NCBI GenBank assembly: GCA_030592015.1
Contig: JAUUZY010000008.1
Coordinates: forward strand, 1 to 38,158
From: Candidatus Peregrinibacteria bacterium
GTDB lineage: Bacteria; Patescibacteriota; Gracilibacteria; UBA1369; LOWO2-01-FULL-3
Direction of reading: 5' to 3'
Length of the DNA stretch: 38,158 nucleotides
Positions within the stretch are counted from its first letter, which is position 1. Each line of letters opens with the position of its first letter. The position numbers and the translations under genes were made by a program. The notes beneath the pieces were generated by a model. It did no database searches, was not told where the DNA came from, and saw nothing but the letters and a program-made list of their open reading frames with translations. Below, in pieces: positions 1-34,012 of this stretch.

Positions 1-926
1 CCCAATGCCTGAGTTGATGAATCTTCTTCATAGGCGGCTCCTGCATATGCTTTCGCTTCGTTTACGTGACTCACCAGTGATTCTGCATTTAACTCAAGCC
101 CAGCTTGATAAGCGTAACAAAGCTCTCTAAAACCCCTGGCTATTTTATTGGCTGCTCTTACTATCGCTTCATTTGGTGACATGTTTAAGGCCTGTTCAGT
201 GTAAAATACTGCACTATTTGCGCTTTCAATTGCAGCCCCTATGTTGTCTTCGTTTAGTTTCACAAGTACTTCTACAAGTTCAGACTCAGCTACACTAAGC
301 ATTTTTTGTGTATCTCCTCCGTATTCTACTATAAGCAATTTGTATATAATTTCTGAAGTTTCTCCACGGGTTAAAGTTTTTCCGGGCTCCAGTCTATTGT
401 CTATTGTTGGGTAAATAATTCCGATTGTTTTTGCATAACTCATATGTGCGATAAACCAATCAGATGTGGTGACATCCGATGCAACGTTTTCTGTTAGCCC
501 CTGGTGTTTTGAAATATCTGTGTCGAAAGCTTGAAGTAGCATTTTCACAAACTCCGCCTTGTTTACCTGTCTGCCAGGTGCAAATGTTCCATCCGCATTA
601 CCGTCTACTATTCCTTGCAACTTTGCTTTTACCACGAATCTTGCAAACCAGGCGTCTAGTGAGACATCAGGGAACCCAGTTGAATCAGTTATTTCTGGAG
701 ATTCAATCTCTGCGCTATTTAGAATCATTTTTAATGCTTCAGCTCTATTTACAGGTGATTCCGGCTTGAATGTTCCGTCTGAATAACCATTTACTATTTC
801 CAGATTTTTCAATGACTCTATTGCCGCATAGTATTGGTGATCTTCTGGTACATCATTAAAGCTTGCTGCAAATGTTACAGGCGAAAGTAATGAAATTACC
901 AAAGCTAGGATAATTAACTTTTTCAT
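1..926 (-). CDS. SLH-domain surface protein (C-terminus cut by window edge)
   Basis: I translated this reading frame directly; it runs off the left edge of the window after about 308 residues. It begins MKKLIILALVISLLSPVTFA, a signal peptide ending in an AxA-like site. Three SLH units follow at roughly residues 22-75, 85-140 and 150-205, with typical motifs such as NGYSDGTFKP followed by NRAEALKMI, then DGNADGTFAP. After about residue 205 the chain changes to an alanine-rich, predicted helical segment of unknown function. SLH domains bind cell-wall-linked polymers and anchor exported proteins on the surface. It is the last gene of a same-strand block of secreted proteins, 77 bases after the previous stop. 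No Shine-Dalgarno motif precedes the ATG. The family call is secure; the function of the helical part is unknown. Confidence 0.85.
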   Translation of the reverse strand, partial: MKKLIILALVISLLSPVTFAASFNDVPEDHQYYAAIESLKNLEIVNGYSDGTFKPESPVNRAEALKMILNSAEIESPEITDSTGFPDVSLDAWFARFVVKAKLQGIVDGNADGTFAPGRQVNKAEFVKMLLQAFDTDISKHQGLTENVASDVTTSDWFIAHMSYAKTIGIIYPTIDNRLEPGKTLTRGETSEIIYKLLIVEYGGDTQKMLSVAESELVEVLVKLNEDNIGAAIESANSAVFYTEQALNMSPNEAIVRAANKIARGFRELCYAYQAGLELNAESLVSHVNEAKAYAGAAYEEDSSTQAL

Positions 927-938
927 AGTTGAGTTTTT

Positions 939-965
939 TAATATCATAATATGTTTATGATATTA
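939..965. repeat. Perfect 11-bp inverted repeat in the leader of the SLH gene
   Basis: TAATATCATAA at 939-949 and TTATGATATTA at 955-965 are exact reverse complements around a 5-base loop. No T-run follows on the minus strand, so it is not a typical terminator. It sits 13 bases upstream of the start codon at 926 and overlaps a possible -10 element, so it may be an operator or a leader hairpin. Confidence 0.5.
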
Positions 966-1003: not shown

Positions 1004-2617
1004 TTACTCATGGCGCCATCGATAATATAGGTTTATCGAAAACTCACGAAGGTCCTTGTTGCAGTTGTTATCTAATCCAAATATATAATATTGATCTCCG
1101 TTAAGATCAACGTTAAGGCTGTTGGAATTATATACTTCACCGGTTAGCCCTGCCGCTACTGTTGTCTCCAGTGAATAATTATTATCATCACTATTACTTC
1201 CTGTGGACCATACTTCTATGTCAAATGAGCCAGCAAGACACAAGTCACTGTCCATTGAGAAGCCATAGCCTGTTATAGTTGCCGGATATGGCAAATACAA
1301 TCCCATTTGTGGCACATCACCACCCAACCCTATTCTGTCCCCCATTGATATTCCACAATCCTCGTTATCTCCAAGGTCATCTCCTTTTGAACATAGATTA
1401 GGCTGGGCTCCTTGCTCGGAAAGGTCCCCAATCGATAGCCATTTACTTCTACCGTTACTTGTGTCGCATGAATAATTAATTCCTGTTTCGGTGTCCATCC
1501 ACTGCATTCCGGTGATTAGACTATTACATATAAGAGGGGGGACGGTTCCCTGATAAGTCCTTAAGGCTATCTCTTCATAATATGTAGAGAAAGCCTCCTC
1601 AGAATCGTCCCATCCGAATTGTTGGTATGTCCCCTCATCATCATCAAAGTTTATAATGATATCTGAGGCACTGTTGTTCCCTAGCTCGACCAATTCACCC
1701 GAGCCCTCAACATTCAGATTCCCAATTATATCCACCAAAGGGGATGTGATTTCTAGTTCCGTATCGGCATCTATATCCATTTGCCCGTCGACCGATGAAT
1801 TTATGGCGAGCTGAACATCCCTAAATTGAATGCTGTTTGCTCCGTCCATTAACATATCATCAGAGAAATGGAAGAAAGTTCCGTCATGTCTCAAATACTG
1901 TCCGATCGTTGTTCCAAAAATTAAATCTACGTTGCCTCCCGTGTCGTCCATATCTAATGTGAAAGTGTTTTGTATTGTTCCATAGTCAGTGTTTTGAGTA
2001 TGTGATCCTGATCCTTCTACTTGTACCCATGTAGCAGCTCCAGCCGCCCCTGTAGATGTACAGTGTTGGAGCTGCAAGTCTGTTGTGTCATAAATAATTT
2101 CACCTACTGTCGTACAAGCTGCGTTTGTAGCAGGATCCGAATCCTGACGAATTATCAAAGAATCCGATCCGGAGAAATCTACTGTCCCCGTTGATGTAAT
2201 CCCTGTGGAATCCAGGGTTCCATTTAGATCCAATAGTGGCGTAGTCACCTCTATTTTTACATCAGCATCTATATCCATTTGTCCATCAATTGATGAATTT
2301 ATAGCGATATCGCTATCTCTGAACTGAATGCTGTTTGAGTTATCCATTAACAAGTCATCTGAAAGATGAAAAAGTGAACCGTCATGCCTCAAATATTCTG
2401 AAATTGCGTTCCCGAATACCAAGTCTACATTTCCCCCTGAGCTATCTTGATCCAAGATCAAAGAGTTTGCATTACTACCTGCTTCTTCATTACTGAATAT
2501 TTCTATTTCAGCGGCAGAGGCGGAAGTAATGCCCAGTAGCAATATTGCTATGAGCATTACTAAACATATGCTTTTTGTAGCACTTTTTTTGACGCTTTTT
2601 TTGGCGATTTTTTTCAT
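1004..2617 (-). CDS. Secreted tail-fibre-like repeat protein, paralogue 1
   Basis: This is a 537-residue exported protein whose signal peptide ends near SASA (residues 1-36). Two copies of an ~82-residue module follow at about residues 52-133 and 218-299. Each copy has GGNVDLVFG, YLRHDG, FSDD, QFRD, AINSS.DGQMDIDAD and LDLNG-type motifs. Between them, at 161-197, lies a two-cysteine module (DPATNAACTTVGEIIYDTTD ending in LQLQHC and GAATW). A divergent two-cysteine module of the same kind lies at 364-393 (CNSLITGMQWMDTETGINYSC). The C-terminal ~130 residues are unique to this copy and cysteine-rich, and may be a beta-sandwich tip. The repeat style resembles phage tail fibres and surface proteins of Patescibacteria. 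The specific function is unknown; adhesion is inference. It lies 25 bases after the previous paralogue's stop. Confidence 0.8.
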   Translation of the reverse strand: MKKIAKKSVKKSATKSICLVMLIAILLLGITSASAAEIEIFSNEEAGSNANSLILDQDSSGGNVDLVFGNAISEYLRHDGSLFHLSDDLLMDNSNSIQFRDSDIAINSSIDGQMDIDADVKIEVTTPLLDLNGTLDSTGITSTGTVDFSGSDSLIIRQDSDPATNAACTTVGEIIYDTTDLQLQHCTSTGAAGAATWVQVEGSGSHTQNTDYGTIQNTFTLDMDDTGGNVDLIFGTTIGQYLRHDGTFFHFSDDMLMDGANSIQFRDVQLAINSSVDGQMDIDADTELEITSPLVDIIGNLNVEGSGELVELGNNSASDIIINFDDDEGTYQQFGWDDSEEAFSTYYEEIALRTYQGTVPPLICNSLITGMQWMDTETGINYSCDTSNGRSKWLSIGDLSEQGAQPNLCSKGDDLGDNEDCGISMGDRIGLGGDVPQMGLYLPYPATITGYGFSMDSDLCLAGSFDIEVWSTGSNSDDNNYSLETTVAAGLTGEVYNSNSLNVDLNGDQYYIFGLDNNCNKDLREFSINLYYRWRHE

Positions 2618-2642
2618 CTTTTTGAAACTTGTTTTTTATCTA

Positions 2643-4292
2643 TTATCTTCCTGTATAGGTAAGTACTAATTCACCCATGTATGGTGACTGAGCAGTTACT
2701 CCAGCCTTTGATGCGTATCCTTTGATTGTAATATAGATGTATTCTCCGGCAGCAGGATCAAAAGTTCCACCGTCAAATTCATCGTTATGTTCAGTCCATG
2801 CAACATTGAATAAGGTCTGTCCATCAACTGCAGTGAAGGCATCATCACCATCGTTATCCTCTACCAAAATATCCATTTTACTATCGGTAGCATCTACCCC
2901 AGTATTTTTGTAGAAGAAGCTTAGGTCATTTGTCGTAGTACTAAAGTCTACGAAATCTTCAGGTAGTTTTACCTTTATCTTTACATCCAAATCCTGAAGA
3001 GTTACCTGTTTTGATGTCGCTACATAGTACTGATGTGGATTTGCTCCAGACTCACTATCTGAATATAGGTTAGCTAAATTACTACTACCATCGGTTAGGA
3101 CAGTCATATCATTCATGTTTACAAACATTTTCTTAGTCCTTGGTGCCATTTTTGCAAAATCAATGTTTGCACCTACTTTAATGTCCGCATTTTCAATGTT
3201 TGTAATGGTGTTTCCTATTCCATCGGCATCGAAACTGAATCCAGTCATTGAACCTGTGGCTGTAATATCCCAGTCTGATGTTTCAAGTGCGAGTGTATCG
3301 CCATTTGTTCCGATAGTAGAGTTACCATTGAAATCAAGAGCTGTAGTACTCAATGAAGTTCCGTTGATTGTTCCACTAACATCCAAGTCTCCATTCAAGT
3401 CTACCAATGGTGCTGTTAGTTCTAACTCAACGTCGGCATCAAGATCCATTTGTCCATCAACTGATGAATTAATACTAAGAGCAGAGTCTCTGAATTGAAG
3501 TGTATTTGCACCGCTCATCAAGACGTCATCTGAAAAACTGAAGAGAGTTCCATCATGTCTGATGTACTGGTTTACACTTGCTCCGAAGATCAAATCTACA
3601 TTTCCAGTTGTATCATCTGAATCCAGAGTGAAGGTATTACTTGTTGTTCCTGTATCAGTATTCTGAGTATGTCCTGACGCTCCTGCGCTGTCTACATCAG
3701 CCCATGTAGCTGCTCCTGCCGCTCCTGTAGCGGTACAATGTTGCAGCCTTAGATCTGTGGTGTCATAGATAAGTTCACCTACAGATGTACAAGCTGCATT
3801 TGTTGCAGGATCTACATCCTCACGGATGTTGAATGCTCCAGCTCCAGAAAAATCAACCGTACCAGTTGATATAAGACCTGTGGAATCTAATGTTCCATTC
3901 AAATCCAACAACGGTGTCACGATTTGCACCTCAGTGTCTGCAATAATATCCAATTGTCCATCGACTGACGAATTAATCGCAGTTTGACTGTCATTGAATT
4001 GAATGGTGTTTGTACCATCCATCAAGAGATCATCTGAGAAATGGAACAAGGTCCCGTCGTGCCTTAGATAGGCTCCGACTGCATCTCCGAATATCAAATC
4101 CACATTTCCACCTGTGTCATCGTAATCCAGAGTCATAGTGTTCGCATTTTCATCCAGCGCTTCATTGCTGAAAATGAGAACTTCAGCCGCTTGGACTGAC
4201 ATTGCTTGGGCGAAAAGCAATGTTGCTGACAGCAGTGCGATGACTGTCATCCGCAAAAGTCTTCCGACTTTTTGTTTTTGTTTTGTAATCAT
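2643..4292 (-). CDS. Secreted tail-fibre-like repeat protein, paralogue 2
   Basis: This is a 549-residue exported protein with a signal peptide of about 36 residues ending near VQAA. It has the same module order as the neighbouring paralogue: repeat module at 52-133, two-cysteine module at 161-197 and second repeat module at about 221-302. A linker with the phrase NTITNIENADIKVGANIDFA (about 361-380) follows, a pattern I associate with phage tail fibres. The last ~160 residues form a domain shared with paralogue 3 (LQDLDVKIKVKLPEDFVDF and a final LTYTGR) but absent from paralogue 1. A TATAAT-like element lies about 22 bases upstream of the ATG (minus strand, 4314-4319), so it may have its own promoter. 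No Shine-Dalgarno motif is visible. A surface-exposed binding role is inferred. Confidence 0.8.
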   Translation of the reverse strand: MITKQKQKVGRLLRMTVIALLSATLLFAQAMSVQAAEVLIFSNEALDENANTMTLDYDDTGGNVDLIFGDAVGAYLRHDGTLFHFSDDLLMDGTNTIQFNDSQTAINSSVDGQLDIIADTEVQIVTPLLDLNGTLDSTGLISTGTVDFSGAGAFNIREDVDPATNAACTSVGELIYDTTDLRLQHCTATGAAGAATWADVDSAGASGHTQNTDTGTTSNTFTLDSDDTTGNVDLIFGASVNQYIRHDGTLFSFSDDVLMSGANTLQFRDSALSINSSVDGQMDLDADVELELTAPLVDLNGDLDVSGTINGTSLSTTALDFNGNSTIGTNGDTLALETSDWDITATGSMTGFSFDADGIGNTITNIENADIKVGANIDFAKMAPRTKKMFVNMNDMTVLTDGSSNLANLYSDSESGANPHQYYVATSKQVTLQDLDVKIKVKLPEDFVDFSTTTNDLSFFYKNTGVDATDSKMDILVEDNDGDDAFTAVDGQTLFNVAWTEHNDEFDGGTFDPAAGEYIYITIKGYASKAGVTAQSPYMGELVLTYTGR

Positions 4293-4313
4293 ATTATTTT
4301 GTTAATGATTGTT

Positions 4314-4319
4314 ATTATA
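4314..4319 (-). promoter_or_regulatory. Candidate -10 element for paralogue 2
   Basis: TATAAT on the minus strand within an AT-rich 118-base gap; transcription from it would give a leader of about 14 bases. The -35 region is poor, so this is a weak candidate. Confidence 0.35.
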
Positions 4320-4410
4320 TATATATTAAGTTTTATCTTTGCTTTTAGCCATATAATTTCATTTATCCATACGATTGTTTGTTAATTAGTATTTTCATAT
4401 ATCAATAATG

Positions 4411-6186
4411 TTATTTACCTATGTAATTAAGTTGTATCTCCGCAATGCTTACCTTGTTGTTTGATTTTGCTTGTGAGTTTAGCCTGATCACTATGAAATC
4501 GCCTGCCGTAAATGTCGGCGCGCCTCCAAATGTGACACCTTTTTGAATCCATATATCTGCTACTGCACTTATCAAATCTGTGGCTCCTACTAGGGTTACT
4601 GCGCTATTTGTTGTGTCTGTCATACTAATGTCCACCTGGTTGTCGGCAATGTTCGTCGTTAGTGTTCTCAAATAAATCTGTATAGGCGTTGCCTGGAAAC
4701 TTACAAAGTCATCCGGAATTTTTACAGCTATGTAGATATCCAGATCTTGTAGCGTGGACTTCTTTGATGACAACACGAAATACTGATGATCATTCGTCGT
4801 GTCGTAACCCTGATGGATGGTTGCATTATTATCAGTGCCGTCCTCGGATATTGTCATTCCGTCGTATTCAGGGAATATCAACAAGGTCTTGTTCCTGTCT
4901 TTCAGTGACGAAATATCAATGTCCTGAATGGTATTGTCGTCCCCGTCGATAGTTTTGTTTGTGAGTGTTTGGGTGTCATCTGTTCCTGCTATATTTGTAA
5001 TTCCATTTACCGTTCCACTCACGTCCAGATCTCCATTCAAATCAACAGTCGGCGCTGTAATTTCCACCTCAACGTCGGCGTCTATATCCAACTGTCCATC
5101 AACCGATGAGTTAATTACAGTTGCACTGTCATTGAATTGAACACTACTTGTGCCATCCATCAAGACGTCATCTGAAAATTGGAAAATAGATCCATCGTGT
5201 CTCAAATATTCACCAACAGCTGTTCCAAAAATCATATCTACGTTTCCTCCTGTATCATCTGTATCCAGCGTGAATGCATTACTGTTTGTTCCTGTATCAG
5301 TGTTTTGTGTATGTCCTCCTCCACCTGCACTGTCTACATCCGCCCATGTGGCTGCACCTGCTGCTCCTGTGGCTGTACAATGTTGTAGCTTTAGGTCAGT
5401 GGTATCATAGATAAGTTCACCCACGGTTGCGCAGGCTGAGTTGCTGGCCGGGTCTGAATCTTCCCTAATCCTTGTACCAGTTGTGCCAGACATATTTACG
5501 AGCCCCGTGGCCGTTATTCCGTTAACTGTCAGGTCACCGCTTATGTTTACATCGTCGTTGAAGTTGAAGTAGCTGTTGTCGTAATCGTATTCCAACACTT
5601 TGCCGAGAGTGCTACCAAATGTTATTTGAATTGCCCCTGTGGCGTTTCCTTCTACGGTATTGTCCCTGTCGATTATGAAATTTTCCTCGTAACTTGCGCT
5701 GGCAACGTCCGCATTGTTTGCATATGGAAGTGATCCGATTGTCTTTCTATCAGTACCATCTACTCCGTCATCACCTGTGGGATCCATTAGCTGGTAGGTG
5801 GTGTCAGCGCCTCCTGTTACCTTGATTTCAACCTGCAGGAATTTGTGGATTGCAAAATCTACTATGCTTGGAAGTGCTGTAATCGATCCCAGTTTTATGG
5901 AGAAAGTTCCATTGTTGTTTGGTGTGATTGTCTGAACTTCCTGCCATCCTCCGTATGTGGCGGCTCCTACATTTAGGGTGCCGGCTGCTATATCTGTTCC
6001 TATTTTGTCGTTGCTTGACCATAGTGAGAAACGGAATGTGTGTGAGCTTATAATTGGATTTCCCGTACTGTCTAAAAGTCGTCCCTCATATATGAAATTG
6101 CCAGGCACTGCTGCTACTGTACTCTGCAGAGGTAGCATTAGAGCAATCATTGCAATTATCACTAATTTTGAGACTATTCTTTTCAT
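4411..6186 (-). CDS. Secreted tail-fibre-like repeat protein, paralogue 3, with extra N-terminal domain
   Basis: This is a 591-residue exported protein with a signal peptide of about 25 residues. Residues ~27-165 form a domain absent from the two other paralogues (GNFIYEGRLLDSTGNPI, then HTFRFSLWSS). Next come a degenerate module, the two-cysteine module (ACATVGELIYDTTDLKLQHC) and one complete repeat module (GGNVDMIFG, EYLRHDG, FSDDVLMDG, VINSSVDGQLDIDAD). The linker DTQTLTNKTIDGDDNTIQDI is a phrase typical of phage tail fibres. The C-terminal ~150 residues match the tip of paralogue 2 (LQDLDIYIAVKIPDDF, final LNYIGK). The ATG lies one base after the stop of the upstream stalk protein, so translational coupling is likely. 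Its function is unknown; a fibre or adhesin is the best inference. Confidence 0.8.
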   Translation of the reverse strand: MKRIVSKLVIIAMIALMLPLQSTVAAVPGNFIYEGRLLDSTGNPIISSHTFRFSLWSSNDKIGTDIAAGTLNVGAATYGGWQEVQTITPNNNGTFSIKLGSITALPSIVDFAIHKFLQVEIKVTGGADTTYQLMDPTGDDGVDGTDRKTIGSLPYANNADVASASYEENFIIDRDNTVEGNATGAIQITFGSTLGKVLEYDYDNSYFNFNDDVNISGDLTVNGITATGLVNMSGTTGTRIREDSDPASNSACATVGELIYDTTDLKLQHCTATGAAGAATWADVDSAGGGGHTQNTDTGTNSNAFTLDTDDTGGNVDMIFGTAVGEYLRHDGSIFQFSDDVLMDGTSSVQFNDSATVINSSVDGQLDIDADVEVEITAPTVDLNGDLDVSGTVNGITNIAGTDDTQTLTNKTIDGDDNTIQDIDISSLKDRNKTLLIFPEYDGMTISEDGTDNNATIHQGYDTTNDHQYFVLSSKKSTLQDLDIYIAVKIPDDFVSFQATPIQIYLRTLTTNIADNQVDISMTDTTNSAVTLVGATDLISAVADIWIQKGVTFGGAPTFTAGDFIVIRLNSQAKSNNKVSIAEIQLNYIGK

Positions 6187-6187
6187 T

Positions 6188-7555
6188 TTATTTTCGTTTT
6201 CTGTACGTTAGGAATGTGATTAGTATCAGTAGAATGAATGCTGCTAAAGGCAGACATTTGTTTATGATTAATGAATCTCCACACAGGCAAATTCTTTGAA
6301 AGAATGTTTTACATTGATCTAATTTTTTGCTTAGATCAGCCTTTTCCCTCTCAAGATCTTTTGCTTCTATAAGTTTAAACTTATAGATTATGTCCCTTGA
6401 GACCACGAGGTCCGGATATGTTTGAACTATGTAAACAGTATGGTCTCCCAATTCCAACTCATCAGGAATTGCTATTTCGAAGTAGCCCTCATTATTGGCT
6501 TTCCTTTCAATTATGTGGATTTTTTCAGCTTGGAAGTATGTGTATATTGTTGAAGAAGGCACGGTATATCCCGTTATTGTTTGCCCTTCTATCTTCTCGA
6601 TATCCCCAAGATCAATTATCTCTGTAAAATTTACTTTAGGATTTTCTATCACTCCGAAATTTTCTATATCAATTTCCGGATAGCGTTTATCCAGTATTTC
6701 CAATATGTATTCTTCGAATTCCCCATCCTCAGGATCTCTAACATCTATCAGGTAATTCCCTATTTCAAGGTCTATTTCTGTTTCATAAATAAAATTTCCT
6801 TCAATGTCTGTAGTCAGTTCTTTTTGAATCAAAACATCCCCTCCTTCGTTTCGTATAGTAATTATGTAATTTTTCTCATGGTCCATTTTATCAACAAAGA
6901 GTGGAGTTATGTCCACTGTTGATATGGTTTCCCTTTTTTTGTATTCCTCGAAATGGTAATTATATTTTCCGATTTTTGGTGGAATGTATGGTAGTGGCTC
7001 AGCTTTTGGCTGAGGTGGTGGTTCTTCCGGACCTCCCGTCCCGTCCGATGGTATTTCCGGTTCCGGTTCTGGTTCAAGTTCAGGTTCTTGTGGTTCGGGT
7101 TCAGGTTCTTCCTGTGTTAGCAATAACCCCGTTCCACCACCACCACCTCCTCCTCCTCCTCCTACGAAAGAACATCCAAGAATGCTTAAAGTAGAGCAGT
7201 CTGAGCTACATACCAAAGTTCCCGAATTGAATCCAAACGTAGAACAACTTTGCCCTTTGAAATCATTTCCGTCACATGTCTCTGTTGTTTGTGCGGTTCC
7301 ATCACCACAAAGTGGGATATTGTTTATCGTTGTAATCTGAAAACTGGTCGAATTTGAGTTGGTTTCTATTGCAGTTAAGCCACTTTGTAGCTCAAAATTG
7401 TTCGAACTGTACTGCTCTGATCCGGTGGAAATAGTGTCAAAATCCAGAACAAAGTCACTACTTACCGCAGCGGCAAGCGCAGAAGCACTGCTCGCCACCC
7501 CTATCATTAGGGCCAAAATTACTAAACTTAAATGTCTTTTTATTTTTATTTTCAT
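6188..7555 (-). CDS. Membrane-anchored surface protein with Cys-rich motif, poly-Gly and Glu-Pro linkers
   Basis: This is a 455-residue protein with a signal peptide at ~1-30. Residues ~83-128 form a six-cysteine motif (CGDGTAQTTETCDGNDFKGQ ... CSTFGF ... LVCSSDC ... GC) of the kind common in secreted proteins of several phyla. An uninterrupted run of ten glycines (132-141) and an acidic Glu-Pro stretch (~149-168) form a rigid or extended linker. Two beta-rich, Ig-like or carboxypeptidase-regulatory-like segments follow (~200-400; DVRDPEDG and DHTVYIVQTYPD). One C-terminal membrane helix (~434-450) ends in RKRK. The layout is a stalk that presents an N-terminal domain outside the membrane. 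It is the first gene of the block, directly behind a good promoter, and its stop lies one base before the next ATG. The specific role is unknown. Confidence 0.75.
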   Translation of the reverse strand: MKIKIKRHLSLVILALMIGVASSASALAAAVSSDFVLDFDTISTGSEQYSSNNFELQSGLTAIETNSNSTSFQITTINNIPLCGDGTAQTTETCDGNDFKGQSCSTFGFNSGTLVCSSDCSTLSILGCSFVGGGGGGGGGGTGLLLTQEEPEPEPQEPELEPEPEPEIPSDGTGGPEEPPPQPKAEPLPYIPPKIGKYNYHFEEYKKRETISTVDITPLFVDKMDHEKNYIITIRNEGGDVLIQKELTTDIEGNFIYETEIDLEIGNYLIDVRDPEDGEFEEYILEILDKRYPEIDIENFGVIENPKVNFTEIIDLGDIEKIEGQTITGYTVPSSTIYTYFQAEKIHIIERKANNEGYFEIAIPDELELGDHTVYIVQTYPDLVVSRDIIYKFKLIEAKDLEREKADLSKKLDQCKTFFQRICLCGDSLIINKCLPLAAFILLILITFLTYRKRK

Positions 7556-7573: not shown

Positions 7574-7602
7574 ATTTTACCATAAACTAGCCATTTTTTC
7601 AA
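7574..7602 (-). promoter_or_regulatory. Promoter of the secreted-protein block
   Basis: On the minus strand TTGAAA (7597-7602) is separated by 17 bases from TAAAAT (7574-7579), preceded by an extended TGG. The predicted start of transcription is near 7567, giving a leader of only about 12 bases before the ATG at 7555 and no room for a normal ribosome-binding site. Confidence 0.65.
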
Positions 7603-10876: not shown

Positions 10877-12289
10877 ATGAAAAAATTTATTATCTTGATA
10901 GGGCTTATTCTAAGCCTTTCCTCTACTGCCTATGCGGGTGAGTGTTTTGAGTTTCCTGTAAAAACTATGGATTACTACGCTGAGACGACTCAGGCGGTTT
11001 ATCTCAAGGACATTGCCTGTATGGATGGATCTACAAATATTGTTACTCTTTCTGCAAATGAAGTTGTTCATGTGATTGCGGATGATGATGGGTGGAAAAA
11101 ATTGGAGAGGGCTGATGGAACTATGGGCTGGGTTTATAAGACTTTTTTGAGGGATACGTCTAGGACTTTTGAGCCGGAGCAGGTTGAAGTTCGGGAGCCT
11201 ATGTTTGATGTTGATGGGCATAAATATGAGAAGGCGATTAGGTTTATTTATGAGAAAGGAATAGTTAGCGGTTATGAGGATGGGAGTTATAAGCCGAATA
11301 ATGTTCTAAATAGGGCTGAACTTTTGAAGATTGTTGTTGAAGGTGTTTATGATAATGAATTCAAGGCTTATTCTGGGACGAATTGTTTTTCTGATGTTCC
11401 TGCGGATGCTTGGTTTACGCCGTATGTGTGTTTTGCGAAGGCTGAGGGAATGATAGAGGGGTATGGAGATGGAACTTTTAGACCGTCTAACACCATTACT
11501 GTTGTTGAGACAACGAAGATTGCGATGGAAGTTTTTGGCTATGAATACCCTGAGGACGCACTTTGGTATAAGGGGCTTATGAAGGAGGCTTCAGATATGA
11601 ACTTTTTGCCTTTGGATTTTTATTCAGTTAGTCAGGACATGAGTCGTGCTCTGATGGCGGACATGATTACAAGGATTTTGAAATCTGAAAGTAGTGATCT
11701 GGAGGAATATTTGGAGGATGAGTATGCTAGAAGAGTTATTCTTCTAGAAGAGTTTGGTTTGTTTGAGCTTCGAATGAATTATATGCAGACTGAGCCGGAA
11801 TCAGGGGATACTGTTGCGACAATAAGCACGAATATGGGGGATATAAAGCTGTTTCTCTATACGGATGAAGCTCCGGAAACTGCAAAAAACTTTGTTGAGC
11901 ATGCGAATGCGGGGAACTATGATGATGTAATTTTTCACAGAGTTGTAGATGATTTTATGATTCAGACTGGGGATTTTGAAAATCAGAGTGGTACGGGTGG
12001 ATATAGCTACCTAGGTCCCGGAACTTCCTTGAAAGACGAATTTGGAGCTGGATTGAGTCATATAAAAGGTGCGGTTTCTATGGCAAATAGCGGACCTGAT
12101 TCTGGTGGGAGTCAATTTTTCATTGTGCAAATGGATGCCGGAACAGACTGGCTAGACGGGAAGCATGCGATATTTGGATTTGTATATGAGGGGATGGATG
12201 TTGTTGATGAAATTGCAGCTGTTGAGACTGACTTCAGTAAGCCGCTGGAGGATATCATAATGGAAAGTGTTGAGATTTCGACCTTTTAA
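10877..12289 (+). CDS. Secreted SH3-like + SLH + cyclophilin peptidyl-prolyl isomerase fusion
   Basis: This is a 470-residue exported protein with a signal peptide at 1-20. Residues ~25-92 look like a bacterial SH3 domain (DGWKKLERADGTMGWVYKTF). SLH units follow at ~108-160 and ~165-220, plus a degenerate third to ~270. Residues ~310-470 are a complete cyclophilin domain. Its active-site residues are visible: R355 in FHRV, F360-M361-Q363 in DDFMIQTGD, the QFFIV strand, W425 and H430 in TDWLDGKHAIFG. The tryptophan is the residue linked to cyclosporin sensitivity in human CypA; many bacterial cyclophilins lack it. The likely role is folding or maturing exported proteins while bound to the cell envelope. 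The stop overlaps the convergent PEGA gene by 4 bases. Confidence 0.9.
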   Translation: MKKFIILIGLILSLSSTAYAGECFEFPVKTMDYYAETTQAVYLKDIACMDGSTNIVTLSANEVVHVIADDDGWKKLERADGTMGWVYKTFLRDTSRTFEPEQVEVREPMFDVDGHKYEKAIRFIYEKGIVSGYEDGSYKPNNVLNRAELLKIVVEGVYDNEFKAYSGTNCFSDVPADAWFTPYVCFAKAEGMIEGYGDGTFRPSNTITVVETTKIAMEVFGYEYPEDALWYKGLMKEASDMNFLPLDFYSVSQDMSRALMADMITRILKSESSDLEEYLEDEYARRVILLEEFGLFELRMNYMQTEPESGDTVATISTNMGDIKLFLYTDEAPETAKNFVEHANAGNYDDVIFHRVVDDFMIQTGDFENQSGTGGYSYLGPGTSLKDEFGAGLSHIKGAVSMANSGPDSGGSQFFIVQMDAGTDWLDGKHAIFGFVYEGMDVVDEIAAVETDFSKPLEDIIMESVEISTF

Positions 12290-30839: not shown

Positions 30840-32558
30840 TTACTGAAACTGTAACGATGTCGACCAGCGTTCGTCTAGAATTTTTCTCATTATTAATTCT
30901 GCCATTTTTCCACGGCTGATTTTTTCATCGTTTTCAGTGTTTGGAAGTATCATGTACAGTCTTCCTGCTTCTTCCAGATATGGTGCATACCATGGATCTT
31001 CATCTCCGGCTTCTGAGAACCCGAATGCTTCAAGGATAATTTTCAATGCTTCAACGTAATTCACGCTATTGTCTGGCATAAAATACCCATTTGGGTAGCC
31101 GTCAATTATTCCTTTTTCTTTTGCGAAACATACGTATGGCGCGAACCATTCTTCCTTTACGTCAGGGAAGCAATTGCTACCTGTTGCTTGTCCCGGGTAT
31201 GCCGCTTCAACTATTATTTTTGTGAATTCTGCACGGTTGATTTTATTGTCAGGCTTGTATGTCCCATCATCATATCCATCTACGATTCCTTCGTCTTTCA
31301 CAAACTCTATTGCGTTTGCATATACATGTCCTGCGATGTCTGGGAAGGCTGCATTTGACTCGACTCCGCCGCCGAGTAGTCCCATTATTTTAAACTCTGT
31401 GAGGGCTGTGTCGTCATAGCTTGATCCCGGATATACTTCTAAAATTTCTAATCTTGCTGAGTCGACTCCTGTGATTTTTTCGTCCAGCATTATTTCTTGG
31501 TAAGAATTGTAGTCTGCCAGTTCAACCATCTGCTCTGTTCCATCTGAAAAAGTGAGTAGAGCTTTTTTGATACGATTATTTTCCGCCCAAATTTCATCAT
31601 CAGTTCCGTAACCATTATGTATTCCAATTTTTTCATATGTTTTTTCTATATCTAGATATTCAATATCCAGCCATTCTCCTACCCCTGAACCATCAACTCC
31701 TTCCACCCATGCCGTGTCCAACTGACTGTCATATGCCAAACATGGATAATAGACCAACGCTCCATCCTGTGTGCTTTCCTGTGCCAGACTTGAAGATGCA
31801 CTTTCTGCGCTTTCTCCAGGAGCAACCATACAGAAAAATGGTGCCTCGTCTGGCCCCCAATATCGTATTTCAATATTATGATCTTCAGTTGGCTCTATGT
31901 TTTCAAAATGCCAGTTTAGAGTGTTCATTTCTCTATCGAATGTGAATCCTTCCGGCTGTATAAGTGTGAGATCATAGACGCTGATGTCGTCTTCGAATTG
32001 AACTTCTATATCTATTCTTTCAATGTCACCTTTCCAAGTTGCTCCGGTTTCCAGGATGTAATAAAACCAAGCTCCTGTTTTGTACTGTGAATGAGTTACG
32101 TCGTATGTGTTTTTTATTTCTTTTTTCTCGAACGGCTCGAAAGTAAGTTCTGACACGTACCAACTTGTAGTGTTGTAGTCTACTTCTTCTCCCAATTCGA
32201 ATACAGAATCGATTATCTCTCCATTTTCGTATGTTGCGAAATCTGTAAGTCTGGAATTATTGTATTCGTCGTCCGGGTCTGTACAGTCCCAATCTTGGCA
32301 TAATTCCGGGAATCCCATTGTAACATCCACCTCTGAATCCGATGTGTTTTCAAATTGGTATATAACTTCCACTGATGTGTAATTGTCGTTGTACACTGTC
32401 ATAAATATATCCTCTTCAATCATTCGAATGTCCGGACTTTCAGATAGTGGTTCCGGCGTGTTTCCTGATCCTCCAAGCCATGCTTCGTCTGCAAATGCTG
32501 TTGACATAGACAGCAAGGTTATCGCTAATACTGCGAACAATGATGTAATTCTTTTCAT
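30840..32558 (-). CDS. SLH protein with N-terminal beta-sandwich and discoidin-like glycan-binding domain
   Basis: The 572-residue exported protein has a signal peptide ending at AFA (residue ~23). Residues ~24-240 form a beta-rich ectodomain (EDIFMTVYNDNYTSVEVIYQ, NWHFENIEPTEDHNIEIRYW), possibly DUF4424-like. Residues ~250-395 look like a discoidin/NADase-type glycan-binding domain: YDSQLDTAWVEGVDGSGVGE, WLDIEYLDI, IGIHNGY, then LEVYPGSSYDDTALTEFKIM. Three SLH units fill ~405-572, including NCFPDVKEEWFAPYVCFAKE with a Cys pair. This SLH cassette is almost the same as that of the next gene upstream. It probably binds glycans while anchored to the cell wall. It is 26 bases after the previous stop in the same unit. 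Confidence 0.83.
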   Translation of the reverse strand: MKRITSLFAVLAITLLSMSTAFADEAWLGGSGNTPEPLSESPDIRMIEEDIFMTVYNDNYTSVEVIYQFENTSDSEVDVTMGFPELCQDWDCTDPDDEYNNSRLTDFATYENGEIIDSVFELGEEVDYNTTSWYVSELTFEPFEKKEIKNTYDVTHSQYKTGAWFYYILETGATWKGDIERIDIEVQFEDDISVYDLTLIQPEGFTFDREMNTLNWHFENIEPTEDHNIEIRYWGPDEAPFFCMVAPGESAESASSSLAQESTQDGALVYYPCLAYDSQLDTAWVEGVDGSGVGEWLDIEYLDIEKTYEKIGIHNGYGTDDEIWAENNRIKKALLTFSDGTEQMVELADYNSYQEIMLDEKITGVDSARLEILEVYPGSSYDDTALTEFKIMGLLGGGVESNAAFPDIAGHVYANAIEFVKDEGIVDGYDDGTYKPDNKINRAEFTKIIVEAAYPGQATGSNCFPDVKEEWFAPYVCFAKEKGIIDGYPNGYFMPDNSVNYVEALKIILEAFGFSEAGDEDPWYAPYLEEAGRLYMILPNTENDEKISRGKMAELIMRKILDERWSTSLQFQ

Positions 32559-33065
32559 TTTTATTGGGGGTTAGTTTTTTGAGATTAGTTTCCTGCTGTT
32601 GTTCTCATTATTAATTCTGCCATTTTTCCACGGCTTATTAGTTCAGCATTTTCGCTTCCCTGTATATGGATTCCCCATGCTTTTGCCTCTTCCAAGTAAG
32701 GGGCATACCATGCAGCTCCGTCTTCTACCGCCTCAAATCCGAATGCTTCCATAATTATTTTTAATGACTCAACATAATTTACATAATCAGCAGGCCTAAA
32801 TGTACCATCAGGATAGCCATCGATTATTCCCTTTTCTGCAGCAAAACAAACATATGGAGCGAACCATTCTTCTTTTACATCAGGGAAACAGTTGGAGCCT
32901 GTAGCTTGTCCTGGGTATACTGCTTCTACAATAATTTTTGTGAATTCTGCACGATTGATTTGTTTGTCAGGCTTGTATGTCCCGTCAGGGTATCCGTCCA
33001 CTACTCCTCTTAAATATACGAATTCAATAGCCTCCTCATATTCCTGCCCTGCGACGTCAGGGAAA
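30900..33065 (-). repeat. Recently duplicated SLH cassette in two adjacent genes
   Basis: About 450 bases encoding three SLH units occur in both 30840-32558 and 32585-34012. Long identical peptide stretches (INRAEFTKIIVEA, YPGQATGSNCFPDVKEEWFA, ISRGKMAELIMR) are matched by very similar DNA, for example the segment around 30888-30920 versus 32605-32640. The two signal peptides also match, but the ectodomains differ, so only the ends are shared. Confidence 0.75.
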
Positions 33066-34012
33066 GGTACTCTTGGAGACAGATCTTCTGTCAGTGCTGA
33101 AAGATCAATTTCTGTAGCATCTTCCGGAATTTCTATGTCAACAGGCTCATTCAAAGCACTGTAAGTAAGATCAAATTCCATGTCAACTTCACCTCCACCT
33201 TCATTTTCTGGAATAACTACATTTGCAGTTCCTAATACTCTTCTCAAAATAATATCGTCTTGTCCAATCCATACGTCCACAGCGAAATCCAACATTTCCA
33301 AAGCTTCTTCTAGTTCAGCTACTTCAGCCTCTGTTGGTGTGGAGTCTTCAAATTCAGTATAAACTTCATATATGAAAGAAATAATTCCATCATTGTTTAG
33401 GTTTCCAGAGTAGTGCCATGTATCAACACCAGAAACTTTTTCAGACCCAATATACTCAAGATCCTTGAAGAAATCTGTTCTTCCAATGATTTCATTCACT
33501 TTCTCTTCTTGAGCAGCAAGATCAGCAGGAGTTAATGTTCCAAAATCTGTAAGAGCACCTTCTGGAATAGGTATAATCCACCATTGTCCGATGTATGGAT
33601 CAGTCATTGCAGTTGGGACTTCACCACCAAAGTCAGAAATCTCAGACAACATTACGTATACTAGCTCGTTTTCCATTCTAATCTCTCCTTTTGCAACTTG
33701 AGGTCCAATCTCAGCTATATCAGCTGCAAGGTCAATAAGCAAAGATAGTCTAGGATTCTCGACATCTGTAGAGTCAACAGCACCTGATAATGCTATATCA
33801 AAATCTATAGCCTCATCTTCAAATTCTGCAGGAGGTCGAATACTTACAGTCATGTCCATGTTCATTTTTACAGTATCCACGTTTGTAGAAAAGTTTTGAA
33901 ACGCTTCACGAATAAGTTCTTCAGCTCCAAGTTCAGGTTCTGCAGCGAAAGTTGCTGCTGCAGACAAAACTGTTATCGCTATAACTGCGAATAGAGAGAT
34001 GATTTTTTTCAT
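32585..34012 (-). CDS. SLH-anchored protein sharing its ectodomain with the lipoprotein at 26872
   Basis: The 475-residue exported protein has signal peptide MKKIISLFAVIAITVLSAAA, ending ATFA (~23). The ectodomain (~25-310) matches the mature lipoprotein at 26872-27903: EAFQNF...VDTVKMNMDM, DFFKDLEYIGSEKVSGVDTW, VDVWIGQDDIILRRVLGTAN. The C-terminal ~155 residues are three SLH units (VVDGYPDGTYKPDKQINRAE; NCFPDVKEEWFAPYVCFAAE; IDGYPDGTFRPADYVNYVES), nearly identical to those of the neighbouring gene. The gene lies between the SIMPL gene (18 bases upstream) and the other SLH gene (26 bases downstream), so it is inside an operon. Confidence 0.85.
   Translation of the reverse strand: MKKIISLFAVIAITVLSAAATFAAEPELGAEELIREAFQNFSTNVDTVKMNMDMTVSIRPPAEFEDEAIDFDIALSGAVDSTDVENPRLSLLIDLAADIAEIGPQVAKGEIRMENELVYVMLSEISDFGGEVPTAMTDPYIGQWWIIPIPEGALTDFGTLTPADLAAQEEKVNEIIGRTDFFKDLEYIGSEKVSGVDTWHYSGNLNNDGIISFIYEVYTEFEDSTPTEAEVAELEEALEMLDFAVDVWIGQDDIILRRVLGTANVVIPENEGGGEVDMEFDLTYSALNEPVDIEIPEDATEIDLSALTEDLSPRVPFPDVAGQEYEEAIEFVYLRGVVDGYPDGTYKPDKQINRAEFTKIIVEAVYPGQATGSNCFPDVKEEWFAPYVCFAAEKGIIDGYPDGTFRPADYVNYVESLKIIMEAFGFEAVEDGAAWYAPYLEEAKAWGIHIQGSENAELISRGKMAELIMRTTAGN

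Follow-up and report, generated by a model that had tools for sequence, protein, structure and literature searches.

We propose that four consecutive genes and an adjoining SLH gene of a Peregrinibacteria-type Patescibacterium encode a cellular, non-phage, mosaic system of adhesive fibres built like the mosaic adhesive trimer (MAT) fibres of the predator Bdellovibrio, and we assign a probability of roughly two in three to this reading. The domain make-up of the proteins, the homology of their modules, the fold class of the tip, the conserved linkage of the genes and the exchange of tips are established computationally. Because the proteins have a MAT-like base, a shaft of the phage-fibre type and exchanged tips resembling sugar-binding domains, the locus is a probable machine for gripping cells or surfaces. 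Studies of how ultra-small, host-dependent bacteria select and retain their partners have concentrated on type IV pili; the source bacterium is itself tiny and probably depends on a host. In the literature that we searched, whose coverage was incomplete, no report of this locus was found.

Layout of the locus and domains of its proteins

The window, i.e. the whole stretch of DNA analysed, is an entire contig of 38,158 bp from a genome of 1.2 Mb. Genes D, C, B and A lie consecutively on the minus strand and are followed by the SLH gene, with spacings of one base (D to C), 118 bp (C to B), 25 bp (B to A) and 56 bp (A to the SLH gene). The coordinates of the four reading frames are those given in a preliminary description of this DNA, and a hydrophobic export signal at the start of each protein, which that description had also noted, was recognised by eye. 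The features are listed in the order of transcription, with the basis of each assignment in brackets.

7574..7602, minus strand: putative promoter-like site TTGAAA-17-TAAAAT with extended -10 TGG (consensus match)
6188..7555, minus strand: D, exported membrane stalk protein, 455 aa (sequence)
7172..7312, minus strand: six-Cys segment of D, CGDGTAQTTETCDGNDFKGQSCSTFGFNSGTLVCSSDCSTLSILGC (sequence, profile matches)
6968..7168, minus strand: poly-Gly and Glu-Pro linkers of D (sequence)
6200..6256, minus strand: C-terminal membrane helix of D (sequence)
4411..6186, minus strand: C, exported fibre protein of 591 aa: N-terminal MAT-like domain, then shaft modules, then a CBM-like tip (sequence, AF2)
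5704..6108, minus strand: MAT-N-like beta-rich domain of C, residues 27-161, directly after the signal peptide (NF053851, AF2)
5320..5484, minus strand: two-Cys module of C (module mapping)
5050..5289, minus strand: ~82-aa shaft module of C, phage-like second half at about residues 330-393 (module mapping, phage matches)
4918..4977, minus strand: tail-fibre-type linker of C, DTQTLTNKTIDGDDNTIQDI (sequence)
4414..4926, minus strand: C-terminal tip domain of C, beta-sandwich (AF2, Foldseek)
2643..4292, minus strand: B, exported fibre protein, 549 aa, modules and tip without a MAT-N domain (sequence)
3909..4148, minus strand: shaft module of B, copy 1 (module mapping)
3678..3842, minus strand: two-Cys module of B (module mapping)
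3405..3647, minus strand: shaft module of B, copy 2 (module mapping)
3153..3212, minus strand: linker of B, NTITNIENADIKVGANIDFA (sequence)
2646..3173, minus strand: tip domain of B, same family as the C tip (sequence comparison)
1004..2617, minus strand: A, exported fibre protein of 537 aa: modules, with a tip that contains Cys and differs from that of B and C (sequence)
2234..2473, minus strand: shaft module of A, copy 1 (module mapping)
2006..2167, minus strand: two-Cys module of A (module mapping)
1736..1978, minus strand: shaft module of A, copy 2 (module mapping)
1007..1552, minus strand: conserved C-terminal tip of A, family A5 (sequence comparison)
3..947, minus strand: protein with three SLH domains and a C-terminal helical domain, cut at the contig end (SLH E=5e-27)

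The preliminary description had placed the genes under one good promoter. A site with a 10/12 consensus match does lie 19 bp upstream of D, but promoter-like matches in this region are no more than in shuffled sequences, and the gap between C and B is AT-rich and could contain a second promoter. That an SLH-anchored protein lies 3' of the fibre genes was confirmed by the three SLH domains at the above E-value, and our own by-eye reading of the window ORFs likewise noticed no capsid, baseplate or lysis gene. The window encodes more SLH-bearing proteins (10877-12289, 30840-32558 and 32585-34012), one of which is fused to a cyclophilin-type isomerase.

Protein D, as had been described, combines a six-Cys segment, poly-Gly and Glu-Pro linkers and a C-terminal membrane helix; its full order is a signal peptide, a conserved N-terminal segment, the Cys-rich part, the Gly/Glu-Pro linkers, a weakly Ig-like region and the membrane helix with a basic tail. 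Its profile matches are weak (DUF4215, Big_6, Big_13 and TIGR02232). The Peribacteria genomes reported in 2016 encode many large exported Cys-rich proteins, weakly similar to Cys repeats of Myxococcus, together with S-layer genes (PMC4736985), and D and the SLH protein fit this picture.

A domain of ~130 residues, overlooked in the preliminary description, is present at the N-terminus of C and absent from B and A. It provides the one named family bearing on function among the four proteins, NCBIfam NF053851 (Bdello_MAT_N), which C matches at E=2.9e-4 and with a score of 20.7 bits, short of the curated 60-bit threshold. When 28 C homologues were scanned singly, 13 matched NF053851 at E<=0.01 and none of the 28 matched any other NCBIfam family; N-termini of exported proteins from other Patescibacteria matched in 8 of 10 cases (best 3.7e-9), and the phylum-wide matches lie mostly just behind the signal peptide. 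All Bdello_MAT_N scores that were inspected are below the curated 60 bits, most of the matches spanning part of the model only. C of the window was missed when NF053851 was run, at E<=0.01, against whole genomes, indicating that the signal of the single sequence is weak, and we therefore put weight on the homologue and phylum-wide scans. In the AF2 model, residues 31-150 of C are beta-rich with pLDDT of ~78-95. We regard homology of the domain to Bdello_MAT_N as likely, and formal membership of the family as tentative.

Phylum-wide, MAT-N-like domains also begin giant exported ORFs of up to ~3300 aa within the fetched stretches, and C-type tips end other large ORFs of up to ~3980 aa (loci L174, L175, L176, L180, L181, L182 and L189). 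In genome G056, the neighbours of a C homologue are an ORF of 4913 aa that ends in masked sequence (L036:1-14739) and a prepilin-like gene (L036:15660-16154).

BLASTP and module mapping confirmed that A, B and C have in common the ~82-residue module and the two-Cys module first seen in the preliminary description, mutual similarities ranging from E=1e-34 to 1e-128. The ~82-aa module occupies residues 49-128 and 214-294 of A, 49-128 and 216-296 of B and 300-379 of C, the last being the one full copy in that protein, while each protein has one copy of the two-Cys module. Both linkers that had been quoted as typical of tail fibres were found again, in B (about 3153-3212) and in C (about 4918-4977). 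In the single-chain AF2 prediction the C shaft has pLDDT mostly <60 beyond residue 290, and the model of A has pLDDT of 41.5.

Conserved linkage and exchange of tips

Conserved gene order, which had been named in advance as a test of the attachment idea, was found in a comparison of 29 loci, among which are two near-duplicate pairs (L045/L046 and L048/L049). In 26 of the 29, window included, the gene immediately after the C homologue, in the same orientation, is a B homologue with a tip, and contig ends lie nearby in two (L060 and L066) of the three loci without the pair. A D-like gene is directly upstream of C, or fused to it, in 21 of the 27 loci having upstream sequence (17 called by HMM and four by eye). 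Because the D-C fusions retain the membrane helix and basic loop of D and the hydrophobic segment of C, these two proteins very likely act side by side. The locus is patchy, being present in 10 of 60 relatives, and its kin in named collections belong mostly to Candidatus Peregrinibacteria and Peribacteria; comM-like and dnaB-like genes near it recur in L030 and L042.

An SLH gene of one family is located within 6 kb (<=6 kb) of the locus in 21 of 29 cases. The best full-length homologue of the SLH protein, its helical C-terminal part included, adjoins fibre genes in all seven of seven genomes, which hold 11-37 SLH matches each; in G045, two further near-full-length copies lie about 12 kb away. 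Several genomes of the class encode very long ORFs, of about 5000 residues, that have SLH-like matches (G000:C27:12725-13318, G036:C1, G045:C3, G049:C25 and G059:C10).

Proteins B and C have a common C-terminal domain of ~170 aa, which had also been overlooked. The C tip is modelled by AF2 as a compact beta-sandwich (pLDDT ~81-97, mostly >90), and its nearest Foldseek matches include the trimeric K2-2 tailspike, CBA120 TSP4, CBM61, CBM15, CBM4 and CBM11, with E-values from 4e-6 to 1e-3. The TM-scores against CBMs are moderate (0.43-0.56 on target), and jelly-roll folds are common. On the basis of this predicted fold, the B/C tip is probably a sugar-binding domain. Searches of the PDB for sequence relatives of the tip, of full C and of the A tip gave matches at chance level only.

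The tips thus far seen form two families, the B/C type and the A type (A5). The A tip is about 50% identical among its homologues, occurs in 8 of 145 genomes of the class and is carried in some relatives by proteins of about 900-1000 aa. Such proteins of 910-1016 aa (L033:15085-17817, L035:5976-9017 and L039:8663-11713) contain a long additional stretch in the middle that may form a beta-helix like those of tailspikes.

Exchange of tips is seen between the window and locus L042. The B tip of the window is 75% identical to the tip at the C position of L042, on the MAT-N-bearing protein, and the C tip of the window is 58% identical to the tip at the B position, whereas like-for-like tips are 28-33% identical and the C base domains 55%. 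The clade mixing the two positions has support of 100/100; elsewhere tips follow position, with 6 changes against about 19 in shuffles. Tree and identities together establish computationally that tips swapped positions between C and B. The loci L045 (a Patescibacteria MAG) and L046 (a Nanoarchaeota MAG) are tip-identical copies, the assignment of the latter to Nanoarchaeota probably reflecting a binning error.

Phage homology, proposed assembly and alternatives

The search of the module against phage proteins suggested in the preliminary description revealed real homology to tail-fibre proteins. At 60% identity (E=9e-15), a structural protein of Pelagibacter phage HTVC115P matches the module over its second half (about residues 330-393 of C), and a scan of IMG/VR with the C alignment gave, via this second half, 234 contigs with the module confirmed by tblastn, the best 80 of the 234 being mostly 52-64% identical to it. 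The module-bearing phage proteins match tail PHROGs and have LTNKTL-type linkers resembling the linker of C, while shuffled-module control queries gave nothing below E 0.38. No relative was confirmed when viral sequences were scanned with protein B, the alignment of the full module or the A tip, and neither tip family had a match in the phage collection. Foldseek comparison with viral models returned fibre-like proteins at an rmsd of tens of angstroms, which we rejected as structural evidence. Strong matches to the full module are confined, within Peregrinibacteria, to the window and its closest relatives (L042 and L047), whereas the D-C-B skeleton is spread much more widely; this suggests that the cellular fibre is the older part and later received shaft pieces of the phage type.

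In the assembly we envisage, D would be exported and, through its C-terminal helix, remain in the cytoplasmic membrane, with its linkers crossing the wall, and C would be exported alongside, its MAT-type base domain lying near the cell and D. From there C would project its module shaft, which may trimerise, to the beta-sandwich tip at the cell surface, where binding of carbohydrate may bring about contact with a host, prey or surface. B and A, which share the shaft modules of C but have tips of their own and lack the MAT base, may be companion fibres or further fibre segments, and the assembly is probably fastened to the S-layer or a wall polymer through the SLH protein. Tips and shaft pieces would be traded between genes and with phage tail fibres, and this would diversify the surfaces that can be gripped. 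The earlier suggestion of a cellular attachment apparatus made from fibre-like parts is supported in part, by the phage-shared shaft module, the cellular locus, the conserved order and the relation of the C base to MAT.

Because the shaft module is common to phage tail fibres, the genes might be thought to belong to a prophage, a tailocin, an extracellular contractile injection system or a remnant of these, but this origin is largely refuted and retains a very slim chance: the fibre proteins have Sec-type signal peptides, no phage genes were noticed in the window, the chromosomal comM-like/dnaB-like context is shared with L030/L042, the order is conserved across the class and the tips lack a phage match. 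A contractile-sheath gene was not found in the genome. The proteins may instead be a structural coat of the cell, i.e. S-layer-associated filaments or matrix fibres that recognise no other cells. The SLH protein as a constant neighbour, the richness of the genome in SLH proteins (35 matches in G000) and the heavy investment of Peribacteria in exported Cys-rich proteins (PMC4736985) all speak for such a coat; the mosaic of exchanged tips, their CBM/tailspike-like fold and a base related to recognition fibres fit binding better than a uniform coat, and we consider the coat unlikely. Still less probable, and differing from the adhesive-fibre reading in target only, is that the CBM-like tips catch polysaccharide particles for nutrition or biofilm attachment, not a host cell. 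The nearest tip folds do include CBM61, CBM15, CBM4 and CBM11 and some loci come from marine biofilm metagenomes, but no glycoside hydrolase was noticed beside the fibre genes, and attachment to other cells is the general way of life of Patescibacteria (PMC13293708).

A broader form of the adhesive-fibre reading, which we hold only tentatively and at somewhat less than even odds, is that Peregrinibacteria, and more widely Patescibacteria, possess a MAT-type fibre cluster (a membrane stalk, two to three fibres and an SLH anchor) whose base is homologous to that of the prey-recognition fibres of Bdellovibrio and which, with swapped tips and phage shaft modules, serves non-pilus contact with host or prey. 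If true, this conserved and recognisable cluster with separable sugar-binding-like tips would offer testable candidates for host range, link attachment of Patescibacteria to the recognition fibres of a predator and show that domains move between the tail fibres of phages and the adhesins of cells.

Comparison with known fibres and pili

Among phage proteins, gp66 of Pelagibacter phage HTVC115P and gp50 of Roseobacter phage CRP-345 share the shaft module with the present proteins, over ~60-75 aa at about 52-64% identity, and likewise have linkers of the LTNKTL type; the module-bearing proteins of marine phages differ in having no signal peptide, no MAT-N-like domain and none of these tips, and in lying within virion gene clusters. 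The C-terminal beta-sandwiches of phage tailspikes and CBMs (K2-2 TSP, CBA120 TSP4 and CBM61/15/4/11) have a fold like that predicted for the B/C tip, a likeness of predicted fold with undetectable sequence similarity.

The closest comparison is with MATs, which are experimentally established and mosaic recognition fibres of Bdellovibrio, all 21 having a ~130-aa beta-rich domain after the signal peptide (PMC10769870). The present system resembles them in its signal peptide with a predicted beta-rich domain of ~130 aa directly behind it (in C), its long repetitive shaft, its cellular rather than phage nature and its independently folded, exchangeable tips, beta-sandwiches included, and the exchange observed here is the mosaic behaviour described for MATs. 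The MAT trait of a variable, independently folding C-terminal tip is found here as a sandwich tip, two tip families and exchange of position. S74 (PF13884) had no match in the genome while the E. coli control was positive, and C would therefore belong to the non-S74 group of MATs. The present system differs from MATs in scoring under the family cut-off, in having the base domain in C and not in B or A, and in its host being a member of the Patescibacteria; the conserved clustering of its fibre genes with those for a membrane stalk and an SLH protein is an arrangement not described for MATs in the accessible part of that source. The MAT shaft is an intertwined trimeric beta-prism or beta-helix; for the shaft described here, the single-chain prediction is of low confidence. 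MATs are also displayed on the cell surface, where they touch prey, a trait towards which the present proteins show signal peptides.

Type IV pili, the attachment organelles usually invoked for Patescibacteria and supposed to have this role (PMC13293708), are like the present system in proposed role. No pilus assembly genes were noticed beside the fibre genes, and T2SSE/type IV pilus-type ATPases are encoded on other contigs of the genome, indicating that the fibre system would work beside pili.
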